The notes below the pieces were generated by a model. It was not told the DNA's origin. It saw only the letters and a program-made list of their open reading frames with translations, and made no database searches. 64,000 bases of DNA from Cellulomonas aerilata (GTDB lineage Bacteria; Actinomycetota; Actinomycetes; Actinomycetales; Cellulomonadaceae), in assembly GCF_007991755.1 (NCBI RefSeq), contig NZ_BJYY01000013.1, forward strand, positions 310,001 through 374,000, given 5' to 3'. Each line of letters opens with the position of its first letter. The stretch's first letter is position 1. Positions 1 to 49,277 of this stretch are shown here, one piece after another. The translations under genes were made by a program, and so were the position numbers.

Positions 1-586
1 CGCCGGTCAGCAGCGGGTAGTGGGTGCAGCCCAGCACGAGCGTGTCGACGTCGGCCTCGCGCACCGGGTCCAGGTACTCGTGCGCGACGGCGAGCACCTC
101 GGGCCCGGACGTGACCCCCGCCTCGACGAACTCCACGAACCGGGGGCACGGCTGCATGGTCAGCGACAGCCGCGGGGCGATGGCGAAGGCGTCGTCGTAG
201 GACCGTGACTGGATGGTCGCCTTCGTGCCGATCACCCCGATCCGGCCCGTGCGGGTCGCGGACGCCGCCCGTCGCGCCGCCGGCAGGATCACCTCGACGA
301 CCGGCAGCCCGCGCCGCAGCGTGTACCTCTCGCGGGCGTCGCGCAGGACCGCCGACGACGCGCTGTTGCACGCGATGACCAGCATCTTCACCCCGGCGTC
401 GACGAGGTCGTCCATGACCTCCAGCGCGTGCGCGCGCACCGCGGCGAGAGGCTTGGGGCCGTACGGGGAGTTGAGCGTGTCGCCGATGTAGAGCAGCGAC
501 TCGTGCGGCAGCTGGTCCAGGATCGAGCGCGCGACCGTCAGACCGCCGACGCCGGAGTCGAAGATCCCGATGGGCGCGTCGTTCAC
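1..586 (-). CDS. murI: Glutamate racemase (3' end cut by window)
   Basis: Interconverts L- and D-glutamate in the cytoplasm, supplying D-Glu for peptidoglycan. The reverse-strand translation begins [20 protein letters not shown], the classic N-terminus. It carries both catalytic cysteine motifs, ACNSAS in the first half and GCTHYPLL near the window edge. The GTG start at 586 is chosen because a TAGGCT -10 box (599-594) ends exactly 7 nt before it, so the mRNA is probably leaderless. About 195 codons are visible; the C-terminal quarter lies outside. It follows clpS and DUF2017 on the same strand but appears to have its own promoter overlapping the DUF2017 stop codon. Confidence 0.95.
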
Positions 587-18438: not shown

Positions 18439-19356
18439 TCAGCGCGGGCGGGACCGCGGTCGCCGCACGGTCGGCGCGGCCACCGGCACCGCCCGCTCCC
18501 CCGTCGCCCAGTGGCCGGGGTGGTCGAGCGACGGCGAGGTCCGGGTACGGGCGTCGCCCCGGGCCGACTCCAGCTGGGACCCGGTGAGGAACAGGCACCC
18601 GGTCAGGTCCGCGCCGCGCAGGTCCGCACCGCGCAGGTCCGCCCCGACGAGGTCCGCGCCGCGCAGGTCGGAGTCCCGCAGGTCGGCGCCGACCAGCAGC
18701 GCGCCGCCCAGGTCCGCACCGCGCAGGTCCGCACCGCTCAGCCGGGCTCCCAGCAGGTCGGCGCCGCGCATCCGCCGGCGCGGCGGGACGTCACCGCGGA
18801 CCAGCGCGCTCGCCTCGCGCAGCAGCACGGCGACCTCCGCGCGCAGCGTGTCGACGTCCAGGGCGAGCAGCTCGTCCGGCGTCCCGCACGACAGCCGGTC
18901 GGTCCGCTCGACGGCATCGGCCAGGGCGCCGCGCAGGGCCGCGCCGTCGGTCCTGCCCCCCACCACGGCGAGCGCCTCGGCGAGGTACCGGAGCAGCTCC
19001 TGCAGGCGGCGCACCACCGGGAACACCGCGAACATCCCGGCCGCCACCGCGGGGCCCTCGCGCCAGTCACGCCCGCCGAAGACGACCTGGGTGACCTTCT
19101 GGCCCGCCCCGAAGCAGTCGTAGACGACGCACCCGGGGAACCCGCGCGGGCGCAGCTCGGTGTGGATGCCGCAGCGCGAGTCCTCCGCCAGGTGCGGGCA
19201 CGGGGTGCCGGCGGGCTTGTCGATCGCGAAGTCCGACGACGCCGCGAACGCCGGGACCACGCAGCACAGCCCGACGCAGCGCGCGCAGTCGGCCCGCAGG
19301 CCCGGGTCGCGGCGCGGGTCCGCCGGTGGGGCGGTGGGCTCGGGGACGTCGGGCAC
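18439..19356 (-). CDS. Cysteine-cluster (YkgJ-like) plus pentapeptide-repeat fusion protein
   Basis: 305 residues. The N-terminal part has eight cysteines (C24, C27, C31, C32, C53, C62, C76, C81) in the pattern CARCVGLCC...CPHL...CGIH...GCVVYDC, a putative Zn or Fe-S binding cluster domain. Residues about 95-190 are helical. From about residue 193 ([20 protein letters not shown]) some 14 pentapeptide units A(D/N)LRG form a right-handed quadrilateral beta-helix. A low-complexity basic tail ends the protein. Function unknown. GTG start at 19356; a 10-bp tandem repeat lies directly upstream. Confidence 0.85.
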
Positions 19357-19390
19357 GGGGTCAGTCTCCCGCAGGGCGGCGCACGCCAGC

Positions 19391-19440
19391 GCAGGGCAGC
19401 GCAGGGCAGCGCAGGGCAGCGCAGGGCAGCGCAGGGCAGG
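19391..19440. repeat. 10-bp tandem repeat (GCAGGGCAGC), five copies
   Basis: Five head-to-tail copies of GCAGGGCAGC (last ends in G), preceded by a partial copy. It sits between the ABC permease stop and the start of the cysteine-cluster/pentapeptide gene, where that gene's promoter or leader would be. Confidence 0.9.
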
Positions 19441-35483: not shown

Positions 35484-38400
35484 ATGCCCGCTGTCCGCAG
35501 CCGCTCGTCCCGTGCCCTGCTCCTCCCCGCCCTCGCGCTCAGCGTGCCGCTCGCTCTCGGGACGGTCGGCTGGCTCCAGCTCGCCCACGGGCTGCAGCCG
35601 ACCGCCCAGGCCGCCCCCCACGAGACGGCCGCGAGGCCGCCGGACCCCGGCGGCCCGGACGGGGCCGTCCACCAGCACGTCGACCCCGCGCTCGCGGCTC
35701 CCCCGGCGATCGCGACCGGGACGGCCGCGGCCGGTCACGACCACGCCGACCCCGCCACCGCCGCCGTACCGCACGACCACGCCGACCCTGCCGCCGCTGC
35801 CGCACCGCACGACCACGCCGACCCCGCCGCCGCTGCCGCACCGCACGACCACGCCGACCCGGCCGCCGCTGCCGCCCCGGCGCCGACGGATGCCGGCGGT
35901 CACGTGGACCACACCGCCATGGCGATCCTCTCCGGTCAGATGGACGGCCCCTCGCTGCCCACCAACGGCACGGACGACGCCGCCGCGGCGGCCGCTCCCA
36001 CCTCCGCGCGCGGCCACCACGACATGGCCGGGATGAGCGCGCTGACCCACTGGCTCCGGGACGGCCTGCTCGCCGTCCCGGTCGTGCTCGCGGCGCTGCT
36101 GGCCGGCGGCGCGGTGTCCGCCGCCGCCGCCCGCAGGGGCGCCGCCGTCCGCGGGCTGCGCCGCTCGGCCACGGCGTCCGCCGCCGGACGCGGCGGGGTC
36201 GCGGCGCTCGCGCTGGCCGTGGCCAGCCCCGGCCACGGGCTGCTGTTCGAGGAGCCGGTCAACGGCCCCGTCGCGCACGCCGCCGAGGTGTTCGTCCTGG
36301 CACTGCCGGCCACGGTGCTCGTCGCGATGCTCGCCAGCGTCACCGTCGGCGCAGGCCGGGCGGTGCGGACCGAGCTCGCCCGGCGGGCCGGCCCCGCGCG
36401 TCCCCGCCGCGCGGCGGTGGCGGGCGTCGTCGCCCTCGCGGTGGGTGGTGTCTCCCTGGTCATGATGCCGACCGCGCAGGCGGCGTCGAGCGCCGGGGTC
36501 TGCCCCGCAGGGTCGCGCTCCATCACCTACGACATCTCCGCGTTCCGGATCTCGATCCCCCTCAACGGGTGGGGTGACCGGCTCCCGGACGGCACGATCT
36601 ACGCGCTGCAGGGCAAGGACGCCCGGGTCGGCAAGACCCAGATGCTCGCGAACCCGAACCTCACCCAGCCCCTCGTGATCCGCGCCAACGTCGGCGACTG
36701 CGTCACCGTGGTGCTCAAGAACGACCTCACCCGCCGCGTCGGCGTCCACCCGGACGGCCTGGTGCAGCTCGACCCCGAGGCCTCCGACGGCGCACGGGTC
36801 GGCAAGAACCCGGACACCACCGTCGCCCCGGGCGGCTCCCGCACCTACACCTGGTACGCGGACAAGCAGGGCGAGGCACCGATCAGCGACATCGCCAACG
36901 TCGACACGGCCGACCCCCGCCACACCACCGTCCAGGACGGGCTGTACGGCGCCGTCGTCGTGCACCCCAAGGGCTCCGTGTGGCGCAACTCCACCACCGG
37001 TGCCGACCTGCTGGCCGGCGGACGCGCGGTCGAGACCCAGACCTACGCCGACGTCGTCACCCCGACCGGCGCGCTGCGGTCGTACGCCATGGTGCTGATG
37101 GACGAGAACGAGGACGTCAAGGACCGCAACGGCAACCAGCCGACGTACCCCACCACGGGCCTGCCGGACTCGACGTTCGGCATCAACTACCGCTCCGAGC
37201 CCCTGCGCAACCGCATGCGCGCGATCCTGGAGCACCGCGGGACCGTCACGCCGGAGAACCCGAACGGCGTCGCCAAGACCATCACGCTGCCCAACGGCAA
37301 GGTCTTCACCCCGGCGGACCACTTCTGCGACGGCTACGTGCCCGAGCTCGACCGGGTCGTGGACGACCCGGGCGCCAAGTGCCTGAACGAGGAGTCGCAC
37401 CTGCAGTCGTGGGTGTTCGGCGACGAGGGCAAGCTCGTCCGCAAGGCGGCCGAGGGCAAGATCACCGTCGACTCGGACAACCTCATCCCCAAGGCCTACG
37501 TCGGTGACGCCGTGCAGTTCCACGTCGTGCACCCGGGCGCCAAGGAGAGCCACCCGTGGCACCAGCACACCCAGCGCTGGTTCAAGGACCCCAACAACCC
37601 CGACTCCCCGCGCAACGACGTGCAGTCCATCGGTCCGGGCGAGGGCTACCGGATGGAGATCGAGGGCGGCGCCGGCGGCACCCAGCGCACCGCCGGTGAC
37701 TCGATCTTCCACTGCCACCTGTACCCGCACTTCGCCCAGGGCATGTGGGGCCACCTGCGGATCTTCGACAAGCTCCGCAACGGCACCCAGTCCTACGCGG
37801 ACGGCACGCCCATCCAGGCGCTGCGCGAGCTCCCCAGCCGCGTGGGCCAGACCGCGGCCCCGACCGCCGCGCAGCCCGGCTTCCCGCTGTTCGTCAAGGG
37901 CGACTTCGCCCAGCGGGCGTACCGCGCGCCGAACGCCGTCGTGAAGGACCAGTTCGCCGCGATCCGCCGCCCCGGGGACGCCCCTCGCGGCCCCACGGCG
38001 CTCGAGGCGGCCGGCCTGCCGGCGCTCGACCCGGCCAAGCCCGGCAACGGCTACATCGACCCGTGCCCGGCGGGCGCCCCGACCCGCACCTACCGCCCGC
38101 ACGTCGTGGACGTGCCCATCAGGTACAACAGCGCCGGCTGGACCGACCGTCAGGGTCGCGTGTACGTGGAGGAGTCGCAGGCGGCCGCCGTCCGGGCCGG
38201 GACCTCAGCACCCGAGCCGTTCACGATCCGCGCCCGGCTCGGTGAGTGCGTCCAGGTGTTCACCACCAACGACCTCCACCTCGACGAGGACCCGGCCGTG
38301 CCCCTCGACCACGTGAACCGGCTCGACGGCGACTACATGCACGAGGAGGAGACCAGCGAGGTCTCCACCCACGTGCACCTGGTCAAGTTCGACGAGCTCG

Positions 38401-45060: not shown

Positions 45061-46035
45061 TCAGCGGTCGAAGGGGGCGTCCAGCCAGACGTGCCGGGGC
45101 GGCAGGAGCGACTCCAGCTCGTCCCACAGCGCGTCCGGCACCGGGTGCGCGGCGGCGGCGAGGGTGTCGGCGACGCGGGAGGGCGCGCCCATCCCGACCA
45201 CCGTGGCCCCGAACCGGTCGTCCCGCAGCGAGAACTGCAGCGCCGCGGTGCGCAGGTCCGTGCCGTGCTCGGCGCACACCCGCTGCATGTCGGCGACGGC
45301 GTCGAGGATCTCCGGCGGCGCGGGACGGTAGCCGTAGGTCACCGGGCGGCGGTCGGGCGCGGCGAGGATGCCGCCGCCGTACACCGCGGCGTTGAGGACG
45401 CCCATCCCGCGGTCGAGCGCCTCGGCGATAAGGTCCCCGGCGCTGCGGTCCAGCAGCGTCCACCGGTTGTGCACGAGCAGCACGTCGAAGACCCCCAGCG
45501 CCAGGTACTTCGCCATCTCCTGGACGCGCCCGCCGGCGAGCCCGATCGCCCCGACGACGCCGCTCTCGCGCAGCTCGACCAGCGCGTCCACCGCACCGCC
45601 GGGCGCGCTGATCTCCGTGAAGTCGAAGTTCTCGGGGTCGTGCAGGTGGACGAGCGGCAGGTGGTCCAGACCCAGGCGCTCGCGGCTCTCGTCGAGCGAG
45701 GCCCGGACCCGGTCGCCGGAGAAGTCACGGTCCCGTGCGTCGACCTTGGTGATGACGACGAAGTCGTCCGGCAGACCGCCGGCGTCCGCGATCGCGGTCC
45801 CGATCCGCCGCTCGCTCTCGCCGTCGCTGTAGTTGTTCGACGTGTCGATGCAGCGGATCGGGCTGTCCAGGGCCGCCCGGGCCGTCGCCACGCCCTCGTC
45901 GACGCTCACCTCGCGCCCGTAGAGCCGCGGCAGGCTGCCCAGCGGGCTGGCCCCGACGCAGACCGCGGAGAGCTGGATGCCGGTCCGTCCCAGCGGGCGG
46001 ACCCAGGTCGGTGAGCCGGGTGCGGGCGTGGTCAT
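45061..46035 (-). CDS. Aldo/keto reductase family protein
   Basis: 324 residues, TIM-barrel NADPH-dependent reductase. Catalytic tetrad positions are visible: Asp/Tyr region CIDTSNNYSDGESERRIGTA, Lys in VVITKVDARDRD, His in LVHLHDPENFD. Motifs GVVGAIGLAGGRVQEMAKYL and LLVHNRWTLLDRSAGDLIAE follow. This branch includes L-fucose/galactose dehydrogenase-like enzymes. It may form a unit with the VOC gene 93 nt upstream. Confidence 0.92.
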   Translation of the reverse strand: MTTPAPGSPTWVRPLGRTGIQLSAVCVGASPLGSLPRLYGREVSVDEGVATARAALDSPIRCIDTSNNYSDGESERRIGTAIADAGGLPDDFVVITKVDARDRDFSGDRVRASLDESRERLGLDHLPLVHLHDPENFDFTEISAPGGAVDALVELRESGVVGAIGLAGGRVQEMAKYLALGVFDVLLVHNRWTLLDRSAGDLIAEALDRGMGVLNAAVYGGGILAAPDRRPVTYGYRPAPPEILDAVADMQRVCAEHGTDLRTAALQFSLRDDRFGATVVGMGAPSRVADTLAAAAHPVPDALWDELESLLPPRHVWLDAPFDR

Positions 46036-46128
46036 GGTGCCTCCGTCGTCGTCGCCGATGCGGACGACATCCCACCACGGCCGGGGCCCGGCGACCCGAC
46101 GGAGGGTGCGGGTGCGGGCGACCGCGGG

Positions 46129-46530
46129 TCAGCCCGTCGTGGCGGGCGGGTTGCTGGTGCACAGGCCGATCCAGCGACCGTCGGGGTCGCTGAGCTCGGC
46201 CCACCAGCCCATGTCGCCGCCGATCTCCGTCCGGGGCGCCCGGACGGACCCGCCGGCCGCCTCCGCCGCGGCGAAGACCGCTTCCAGGTCCGCGACGTTG
46301 ATGTACGTGCGCACCCCGGGCGGGTCGCCGGCGGCCCCCTCGGCGCGGTAGATCCCTCCGATCAGCTCGCCATCGCGGACGACGCCCAGGTAGGCGTCGT
46401 CGTCGCCACCGAACGACGTGAACGTCCACCCGAACACCTCGCCGTAGAACCTCTGGGCGGCGGTGACATCGGTGACGGGCAGCTCCCACCACGTCACGGT
46501 GTTGAGCGGCTCCTGCTGGGTCTCGGTCAT
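46129..46530 (-). CDS. VOC family protein (glyoxalase-like)
   Basis: 133 residues. NTVTWWELPVTDVTAAQRFY, GEVFGWTFTSFGGDDDAYLG, then AELSDPDGRWIGLCTSN; one complete VOC domain. The expected metal-binding His at strand 1 is Trp, so it may be non-catalytic or bind a different ligand. ATG at 46530 with a GGAGG site. Ends 93 nt before the aldo/keto reductase start. Confidence 0.88.
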   Translation of the reverse strand: MTETQQEPLNTVTWWELPVTDVTAAQRFYGEVFGWTFTSFGGDDDAYLGVVRDGELIGGIYRAEGAAGDPPGVRTYINVADLEAVFAAAEAAGGSVRAPRTEIGGDMGWWAELSDPDGRWIGLCTSNPPATTG

Positions 46531-47152
46531 CGCGGGTCCTCCAGAGGAGGGGGCCGACCGTCGGGCCGGCGAAGGCGGACGAGGGGCATGGCGATTTTTC
46601 CGTCGGCGATGCGGGGAGCGCCAGGGGGTGCGTCGACCTGTGGTCGCTCGGGGACGGTGCGGGCGGGGGGTTGCGATGGTGGCGTGGCGGGAGCCCCCGC
46701 ATTGCACTCCAGCGGCCGCCCGGTGGCCGGCTTCCTGCACGCGTTGTCCGGTGGCGGGGCGGGAGTCCTCACACCCCACTCCAGCGGCCGCCCGCTGGCC
46801 CGCTTCTCGCAGCGTCGTCCGGTGGCGCGCCGATCCTCGGTGTGCGTGCTACCCGCGGCCGCTGCCCCAGCCGAGTCGCGCGCTGACAGGCTCGTTCTTC
46901 CCGCTTTGCCACCCGCGCGCAGGCACCCGCGCCCCACTGCTCGTCCATATTCTTCACCCCGCCGAAGCGAGCCGACCTCGCTCATTCTTTCCTTCTGCCA
47001 CCCGCCCACAGGCATCCGCGGACCACTGCTCATCCACAGTTGTCGCCGCGCCGCCAAGAATGTCAGTGGCTCGTCCTAGCATGGTGCTCAGGAATCGGGC
47101 CAGAGTCAGTGGGCAACGAAGCCGAACGACCGACGGGAAAGGGGTGAACGCC
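46531..47152. repeat. Non-coding region with two pairs of imperfect tandem repeats
   Basis: No convincing gene in these 622 bp. 46681-46752 and 46753-46827 are tandem copies of a 72-bp unit sharing CACTCCAGCGGCCGCCCG. 46891-46951 and 46981-47041 are about 60-bp copies sharing CCACTGCTC and GGCA(C/T)CCGCG. Base composition dips below the neighbours near 46940-47060. It precedes a DUF222-HNH gene and may be part of its repeat family. Confidence 0.65.
47077..47082 (+). promoter_or_regulatory. -10-like box of DUF222-HNH gene (TAGCAT)
   Basis: TAGCAT about 70 nt upstream of the ATG, downstream of the repeats. Confidence 0.4.
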
Positions 47153-48535
47153 ATGGATGACGACGTGTCGGACGAGCCGGGCGTCACCTCGCCGAGTGCC
47201 ACCGGCACGGATCTGTCGACGGTGCGTCCGGAGGTCGCGGAGCTGTTGGCGGCGTTGGAGGCGGTGGCCGATGCCGCGGTCGCCGTGGCCCGGTCGGACG
47301 CCGGGGTGGACGGTCGTGAGGCGGCGGTGGTGGCCGCCGGGATCGCGGCCGCGACGAGCCGGCTCGGGGTGGTGCAGGCCCGGATGCTGGCGGTGGTCGA
47401 AGCGGACGGGATCTGGTCGCTCGAGTCCCGGTCGCTGGTCCGATGGGCCGCCCGACGACTCGACGTCACCGTCCGCACCGCCCAGGCCCAGGTGCACCTC
47501 GGCCGGACCCTGCGCGACGACCTGCCGCTGACCGCCGCCGCGGCCGCGGCCGGGGAGATCGGCGTGGAGCACGCGCACGTGCTCGCCGCCCTGGCACCCA
47601 CCACGGAGCGGCGGCGCGCGGCGCTGGCCAGCCCCGATGTCGAGTGCAACGAGGCGTGGCTGGTCCGGCAAGCCAAGCTCAACACCGTCGACGACCTGCG
47701 GACCATCGTCCGGCACTGGGCGGCGGCAGCCGACACCGAGGCGGACGACCGCGGGTACGTCGAGGCGTGCGAACGCCAGCACCTGCAGTTCGCACCAACG
47801 CTCGGCGGGTACCACGTGCAGGGGTTCCTCACCGTGGACGTCGGGCAGGCCCTGGTCACCGCCCTCGAAGCCGTCACGCCTGTCCCCGCCGCCGGGGACA
47901 CCACGACGGCGGACCAGCGGCGCGCGCAGGCGGTCGGGGTGCTGGCGAACCTGGTGCTGGACAAGGGACTGGCCGGCGACGGGCGAGCGTCGCGGCCCCG
48001 GCTGAACGTGCTGGTGTCGTACGAGACGCTGCAGGCCGTCACCGAGCGGGCGATCGCGCGGCAGGACGGGCTCACGCTGCTTGAGGCAGCGCCGCTATTG
48101 ACGGAGAAGAGCGTGCTGCGCGGGCCGCAGTTCGAGGACAGCACCCCGGTCCCGCGCATTCTGCTCGACCGGTTGGCGTGCGACGGCGAACTCAACCGGG
48201 TGATATTCGGCCCGACGTCCGAGATCCTCGACGTGGGCCGGGCGGAACGGACGTTCACCCGGGCGAGACGGAATGCGATCATCGCCCGGGACCGGCACTG
48301 CCGGTTCCCCGGGTGCAGCGCACCGCCGACGTTGTCCGAATGCCACCACGTCCGACATTGGGGACGAGATCACGGCAGCACCTCGGTCAGCAACGGGATC
48401 CTCCTGTGCTGGCACCACCACGGGCATGTCCACGCGCGCGGGATCGAGATCCACCGGCGAGGTGCCCGGTGGGTGTTCACCGACGCGGCCGGCCGCGAGC
48501 TAGGCGATCCATGCCCGGGCGACGAGGCGGGATGA
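47153..48535 (+). CDS. DUF222 / HNH endonuclease (13E12 repeat family)
   Basis: 460 residues. N-terminal two thirds DUF222 (AAVVAAGIAAATSRLGVVQA, SRSLVRWAARRLDVTVRTAQ, LGRTLRDDLPLTAAAAAAGE). C-terminal HNH domain with zinc and catalytic residues: CRFPGCSAPPTLSECHHVRH, then SNGILLCWHHHGHVHARG. A multi-copy family in actinobacteria, known as REP13E12 in mycobacteria; function unproven, suspected selfish or intron-like spread. The ATG at 47153 has GGAAAGGGG upstream. Intact, no frameshift. Confidence 0.93.
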   Translation: MDDDVSDEPGVTSPSATGTDLSTVRPEVAELLAALEAVADAAVAVARSDAGVDGREAAVVAAGIAAATSRLGVVQARMLAVVEADGIWSLESRSLVRWAARRLDVTVRTAQAQVHLGRTLRDDLPLTAAAAAAGEIGVEHAHVLAALAPTTERRRAALASPDVECNEAWLVRQAKLNTVDDLRTIVRHWAAAADTEADDRGYVEACERQHLQFAPTLGGYHVQGFLTVDVGQALVTALEAVTPVPAAGDTTTADQRRAQAVGVLANLVLDKGLAGDGRASRPRLNVLVSYETLQAVTERAIARQDGLTLLEAAPLLTEKSVLRGPQFEDSTPVPRILLDRLACDGELNRVIFGPTSEILDVGRAERTFTRARRNAIIARDRHCRFPGCSAPPTLSECHHVRHWGRDHGSTSVSNGILLCWHHHGHVHARGIEIHRRGARWVFTDAAGRELGDPCPGDEAG

Positions 48536-48614
48536 GCCGTGCGCCGCGGGCACGGCCGGGGCGCCTGCTGGCGCGGTCGTACGGTTTCGAGCGACCGGAG
48601 CACTCCCGACCCGC

Positions 48615-49277
48615 TCAGCCCCGACCAGCCCCCGGCCGGACCAGACCCGACTCGTAGGCGTACACGATCGCCTGCGCGCGGTCGCGCACGCCCAGCTTGT
48701 GCAGCACCCGCTTCACGTGGGTGCGCACCGTCTCCTCCGAGATGTACAGGCGCAGCGCGAGCTCCGCGTTGGACGCGCCGGAGGCCAGCGCGACCAGGAC
48801 CTCGGTCTCCCGGTCGGTGAGCGGGTCGGTCAGCGGCGGAACCGGCACCGGGGCAGGGACGCGGGCGAAGGCCTCGATGAGCCGCCGCGTGACCGACGGC
48901 GAGAGCAGCGCCTCTCCCCCGGCCACCACCCGCACCGCCGCGATGAGGTCCTCCGGCGGCGTGCGCTTGAGCAGGAACCCCGACGCCCCGGCGCGGATGG
49001 CGTCGAACACGTAACCGTCGTGCTCGAAGGTCGTGAGGATCACCACGCGCGTCGCCGGTGCCTCGGCGGTCAGCCGCACGGTCGCCTCGATGCCGTCCAT
49101 GACGGGCATCCGGACGTCGACCAGGGCGACGTCCGGCGCCTCGCGCACGACGAGCTCCACGCCCTGCAACCCGTCGGCCGCCTCGCCGACGACGACGACG
49201 TCGTCGACGCTCTCCAGGATCATCCGCACGCCCCCGCGCACGAGGTGGTCGTCGTCGACGAGGGCGACGCGGATCAT
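48615..49277 (-). CDS. NarL/LuxR family response regulator
   Basis: 220 residues. Receiver domain with VALVDDDHLVRGGVRMILES, phospho-acceptor Asp in DVALVDVRMPVMDG, Thr in VVILTTFEHDGYVFDAIRAG and Lys in FLLKRTPPEDL. LuxR HTH: LTDRETEVLVALASGASNAE, LYISEETVRTHVKRVLHKLG. Start ATG overlaps the kinase stop by 4 nt. Cytoplasmic partner of the adjacent kinase; targets may include the neighbouring membrane protein. Confidence 0.95.
   Translation of the reverse strand: MIRVALVDDDHLVRGGVRMILESVDDVVVVGEAADGLQGVELVVREAPDVALVDVRMPVMDGIEATVRLTAEAPATRVVILTTFEHDGYVFDAIRAGASGFLLKRTPPEDLIAAVRVVAGGEALLSPSVTRRLIEAFARVPAPVPVPPLTDPLTDRETEVLVALASGASNAELALRLYISEETVRTHVKRVLHKLGVRDRAQAIVYAYESGLVRPGAGRG

Follow-up and report, generated by a model that had tools for sequence, protein, structure and literature searches.

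A PafBC-type damage promoter with an upstream DnaA-box-like element precedes a DUF222-HNH gene in Cellulomonas aerilata

RESULTS

The DUF222-HNH gene and its paralogues

The window analyzed in this work, i.e., the whole stretch of 64,000 nt from C. aerilata, carries a DUF222-HNH gene (Table 1) whose start is separated from a divergently oriented VOC gene by an intergenic stretch of 622 nt (46531-47152). The initial annotation had described this stretch as non-coding and atypical in composition; the deviation in composition is mild (71.2% GC, falling to ~65% at 46900-47200). The gene itself is a DUF222 member, as first annotated, with a profile match of 66 bits (E 4e-18) against a cut-off of 24.4. 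Its HNH profile match is weak (E ~0.01, below the cut-off); among the other members such matches reach E 1e-6, 14 of the 17 members match at E 0.1, and the C-terminal part of the protein matches the HNH domains of IscB and McrA-type nucleases.

Residues 20-212 of the protein were modeled with a pLDDT of 91. The best fold match, over residues 64-195, has a Z of 9.3 (2.5 A over 101 residues, identity ~17%), and the 15 best entries are all Noc, ParB, Spo0J or KorB (Z 9.3 to 5.8), the next one falling to 5.0; Foldseek returned a best probability of 1.00, but with an E of 0.32. The DUF222 domain (47210-47788 of the window) thus models as an HTH fold of the ParB/Noc/KorB type, from which DUF222-HNH proteins look like DNA-binding nucleases. 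What sets DUF222 apart from ParB, Noc and KorB, besides the low identity, is its fusion to an HNH nuclease domain. A defense system was considered and rejected (no PADLOC match at E 0.1), and the only PHROGs hit was a weak one to HNH (E 0.0037).

The genome has about 17 DUF222-HNH paralogues, many of them 85-91% identical in DNA. Eight contig ends fall within DUF222 or DUF222-like genes or directly behind them (L008, L010, L016, L017, L024, L055, L062 and L064), as expected from assembly breaks caused by repeats.

Table 1. Features of the DUF222-HNH locus (positions in the window, or residues of the 460-aa protein)
Feature	Position	Strand	Basis or remark
Tandem pair of 72-bp units	46678..46823	.	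TRF, gapped alignment, shuffles; no recognized relative or function
First copy (period 89 bp, decayed) of the promoter upstream region	46866..46964	+	Alignment
Second 89-bp copy, immediately 5' of the promoter core	46957..47053	+	Alignment
Distal box-like element, CCCACAGG	47005..47012	+	28 nt upstream of the proximal box; alignment
Proximal DnaA-box-like element, TCATCCACA	47030..47038	+	TCCACA begins 28 nt upstream of the core
PafBC-type -26 element, TGTCAGTGG	47061..47069	+	Pattern search; agrees with the published motif
-10 element, TAGCAT	47077..47082	+	Pattern search
DUF222-HNH gene, 460 aa	47153..48535	+	Profile matches, structure model
ParB/Noc-like HTH fold	residues 64-195		Predicted structure
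HNH domain	residues ~361-453		Profile and structure comparison

Tandem repeats upstream of the gene

Two pairs of tandem repeats lie in the intergenic stretch. In the first, 46678-46752 aligns with 46750-46823 in a gapped alignment, with 82% identity across 62 nt, and TRF reports it with period 72 and score 207, which bears out the 72-bp tandem duplication initially annotated. The second had been given a 60-bp unit and an offset of 90; the duplication is real, with a period of 89 and an aligned unit of ~98 nt (46866-46964 versus 46957-47053, gapped alignment), its best 58 nt being 79% identical (46907-46964 versus 46996-47053), and it is absent from the TRF output at score 40. In 200 shuffles of the 622-nt stretch that preserve dinucleotides, the score reached at most 15.8 over all offsets; the repeats themselves score 37.8 (offset 72) and 31.6 (offset 89), so that both pairs are far above chance, about twofold over the best shuffle. 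Structured RNA was discarded as a candidate, Rfam having no match at E 0.1 in 46000-49000.

We found no credible similarity between the 72-bp and the 89-bp units. Searched against the whole genome (query 46650-47160), the 72-bp unit gave short matches only (E at least 0.01), and among 38 relatives it had no match except one that overlaps its last bases. The companion role initially proposed for it is thereby rejected, on the very ground that the proposal had named; the pair is a separate local duplication with no recognized function. The 89-bp pair does overlap a conserved upstream region. Its second copy holds the box-like CCCACAGG (47005) and the proximal TCCACA (47033), 28 nt apart. The first copy has TCCATA (46944-46949) in place of the box and lacks a core downstream. 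The 89-bp pair duplicates the upstream half of the promoter, its control region, in decayed form.

Duplications of this kind are found at two other DUF222 loci, L005 and L014, where the promoter is duplicated and the upstream copy lacks its -10; duplication thus recurs, yet the units are not conserved. Among the 17 DUF222 upstream regions, the only other strong tandem repeat of 25-150 nt is that of L002, an unrelated 32-nt unit with a different period, and the other 15 have no tandem repeat above their shuffles. Elsewhere in the window, strong tandem arrays of 36/72 bp (35736-35879) and 15/45 bp (18604-18770), probably coding, and a 10-bp unit in seven tandem copies (19370-19439) were also observed.

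A damage-type promoter core common to DUF222 genes and recA

Region 47006-47084 resembles the DNA located 5' of other DUF222 genes in a whole-genome search, and it contains the core TGTCAGTGG-N7-TAGCAT (47061-47082), which is the sole match within the window and occurred in none of 100 shuffles. The PafBC motif is given as TGTC(G/A)G-N10-TA-N3-T in the accessible text of its description (PMC8151990), and the core, standing upstream of the DUF222 start codon, agrees with it. Judged by its sequence, the core is a promoter of the RecA-NDp/PafBC DNA-damage type.

The pattern TGTCRGTGG-N(6-9)-TAGNNT has 17 sites in the genome, and the reversed-pattern control has none. Ten of these sites precede DUF222 genes, called from the downstream length and a profile of the genome's own DUF222 proteins, one precedes recA, and three precede genes that by eye encode a STAS protein, an amylase and a PhoH/PIN protein. 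The remaining three precede ORFs cut by contig ends (<450 nt downstream), whose starts look DUF222-like by eye and which are probably DUF222 genes. Viewed from the gene side, the 17 DUF222 upstream regions (13 from the genome search plus four at contig ends) have the strict core in 13 cases and a relaxed core in three (L009, L014 and L015), L013 having none. The DUF222 family and recA thus have a damage-response promoter type in common. As for the regulator, two WYL-domain genes lie 0.9 kb apart on the same strand of contig C9, an arrangement that fits PafB and PafC; by analogy with mycobacteria, PafBC would control these promoters in C. aerilata.

Empty site and mobility

In a congener (L257), the genes for a histidine kinase, a response regulator, a VOC protein and an aldo/keto reductase keep their order from the window and enclose no DUF222 gene, and 222 bp replace the 2097 bp of the window. 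The search for an empty site suggested by the initial annotation thus yielded one, at one locus; it shows a gain or a loss of the DUF222 gene, directions which a single relative and locus do not tell apart. Six other loci with a neighboring aldo/keto reductase gene had neither a DUF222 match nor the matching gene order, one of them adjoining a distant kinase/regulator pair. In one relative (genome G001; L263 and L275), the ortholog of the response regulator seems to be broken up over two frames.

This empty site, the about 17 paralogues, many of them closely similar, and the promoter-region duplications at L005 and L014 would suit the initial proposal of a mobile or homing DUF222 unit that the repeats accompany as a conserved sequence. 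Against it, the 72-bp unit is not common to other loci, L002 alone among the DUF222 upstream regions has a further strong tandem repeat, of another period, and at the borders of the DUF222 stretch, which are uncertain, there is no direct repeat of at least 9 bp that could be a target-site duplication, the single 9-mer inverted repeat found there not being significant. Carriage as phage cargo was rejected as well, no phage record matching at E 1e-8, and plasmid records gave one partial match. For the repeats, this explanation is already mostly refuted and we consider it very improbable. What does accompany DUF222-HNH genes is the promoter core with its upstream element, not the tandem repeats; and since the identical promoter type drives recA, which is not mobile, conservation of this sequence does not denote a mobile or homing unit.

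A position-locked TCCACA element upstream of the core

The proximal box has counterparts at many other promoters, and a second box at 54-61 nt is often seen in those of recA and DUF222 genes. Promoters of this genome and of relatives (100 stretches from among the matches listed, plus the loci given with them) were picked by the core alone, merging identical 70-nt keys and leaving out 13 with <450 nt downstream (six with the box) and one without TAG. An exact TCCACA starting 28-31 nt above the core was found in 16/35 DUF222 and 6/11 recA promoters and in 0/83 others, many of which may match the core by chance and not be real PafBC promoters; the last count is thus not proof of specificity for recA and DUF222 within the true regulon. 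The corresponding Fisher p of 2e-12 is too optimistic, because the rows are related by descent. Exact TCCACA is absent from 19/35 DUF222 and 5/11 recA promoters; some of the promoters without it have a one-base variant at the right spacing and many do not.

Box plus core were matched in 122 of the 394 genomes of the class (own genome included; at least three control matches) and not in the other 272. Among the matches listed, tallied by hand without the rows of our own genome, 116 of 140 rows have a spacing of 28-32 nt, a class that comprises 84 genomes and 30 genera among those matches, and minor groups fall at 18-22 (11 rows), 37-41 (7) and 42-48 nt (6), with none of the 140 at 23-27 or 33-36. 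Relative to the main class, these groups are offset by roughly one turn of the helix, a pattern of helical phasing. In reverse orientation the box gave 39 matches in 30/394 genomes (at least one control match), mostly 14-26 nt from the core. A ruvC-like gene, so named by eye (L215, genome G128), also carries this core, its TCCACA standing one turn further upstream, at 39 nt.

It may be asked whether the element is a mere residue of the common ancestry of these promoters, with no function, as recent copying of the DUF222 paralogues could suggest. Its locked position in 30 genera among the matches listed, and at recA as well, while the bases between box and core vary, argues against this, and we regard it as highly improbable.

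Resemblance to DnaA boxes

The flank of TCCACA was not selected for; among 57 sequences it has a pyrimidine at -3 in 49 and at -2 in 54 and a purine at -1 in 46, so that the element reads YYRTCCACA, a relaxed form of the DnaA-box pattern. TTGTCCACA is listed as the high-affinity DnaA box of Mycobacterium tuberculosis and Streptomyces coelicolor (PMC4285127), and the window's TCATCCACA differs by one base from TTATCCACA. Among the reverse-oriented matches, 14/39 read TGTGGAYAA, the exact complement of TTRTCCACA. The strict form is rare in this genome (12 sites versus 5 in the control, two of them at these promoters), so that most boxes here are relaxed; in the presumed oriC, on the 3' side of dnaA, five TCCACA sites lie within ~240 bp, and their flanks are relaxed to the same degree as at the promoters. 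The SiwR palindrome, also considered, does not fit the element, since in the accessible text it lies between -35 and -10 (PMC10693628).

The element is therefore best described as a DnaA-box-like candidate site, and we infer from the motif that DnaA may be its binding protein. Binding of a different activator or repressor with a DnaA-box-like site at the same damage promoter is possible, if somewhat doubtful: helical phasing requires merely some protein in contact with the polymerase, and the boxes of this genome are relaxed relative to TTRTCCACA, but the exact DnaA extension occurs in both orientations in many genomes and the unselected flank drifts to TT (T at -3 in 32/57 and at -2 in 26/57). 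The DUF222 protein itself, whose N-terminal domain models as a ParB/Noc HTH fold, could also bind the upstream boxes and autoregulate; this is unlikely given that recA promoters carry the element too, at an equal spacing (6/11).

DISCUSSION

The explanation that we favor, with confidence just short of even, is that of a PafBC-type promoter with helically phased, DnaA-bound boxes that tune the damage induction of recA and DUF222 genes to replication. The working part would be a SigA promoter of the RecA-NDp type, TGTCAGTGG-N7-TAGCAT, activated by PafBC as single-stranded DNA builds up; one or two DnaA-box-like (Y)(Y)RTCCACA sites would stand on a fixed face of the helix, centered ~28 and 56 bases above the core, and DnaA bound there may touch the RNA polymerase-PafBC complex, so that recA and the DUF222 nucleases would respond to damage in tune with the state of replication. 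The direction of this tuning, that is, the sign of the effect of DnaA, is something that we can only infer. While the motif, its distribution, the element's spacing and its sequence are shown here, PafBC activation and the single-stranded DNA signal come from published mycobacterial work: according to the accessible text, in mycobacteria single-stranded DNA activates PafBC, which adapts the SigA polymerase to promoters of this kind (PMC11804915). The wider proposal that, across actinomycetes, DnaA directly regulates the RecA-independent damage response through phased boxes built into the PafBC promoters of recA and of the large DUF222 family of ParB-fold HNH nucleases, and so couples induction to replication initiation, is one that we advance tentatively, as a possibility.

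The promoters described here resemble the mycobacterial RecA-NDp/PafBC promoter in their core, TGTC(A/G)G-N10-TA-N3-T, in the presence of recA among the targets and in the accompanying PafB/PafC-like pair. They depart from it in that most copies drive DUF222-HNH genes and, relative to the mycobacterial promoters as portrayed in the accessible texts, in the phased DnaA-box-like element upstream. With DnaA boxes involved in transcription control, the element has in common the YYRTCCACA pattern, the occurrence in both orientations and the helical phasing. No joint mention of "DnaA box" and "recA promoter" was found in the literature searched, mostly outside subscription journals, and no DnaA-controlled promoter of recA or of the PafBC type is known to us from published work on actinobacteria. 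Should the element be a site of DnaA, the initiation of replication and the main damage response of actinobacteria would be wired together at recA.

The shared promoter type ties the DUF222-HNH genes, abundant and unexplained, firmly to the damage response, and the predicted fold gives the DUF222 domain a likely DNA-binding role, so that a damage-induced DNA-binding nuclease would be the simplest reading of the DUF222-HNH protein. A comparison at hand is the 13E12 repeat family of M. tuberculosis, whose proteins we take to belong to DUF222. In the accessible parts of two reports, the 13E12-family HNH genes of Mycobacterium are damage-responsive and some are in the LexA regulon (PMC4181829, PMC5005354). 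Multi-copy HNH genes under DNA-damage control are thus a trait of both groups and, unlike in 13E12, most copies in C. aerilata have a PafBC-type promoter and no LexA-like box (14/17). The three paralogues that do have such a box, L009, L013 and L015, carry it around or just after the -10, which suggests for this subgroup an SOS control that replaces the PafBC control or adds to it.
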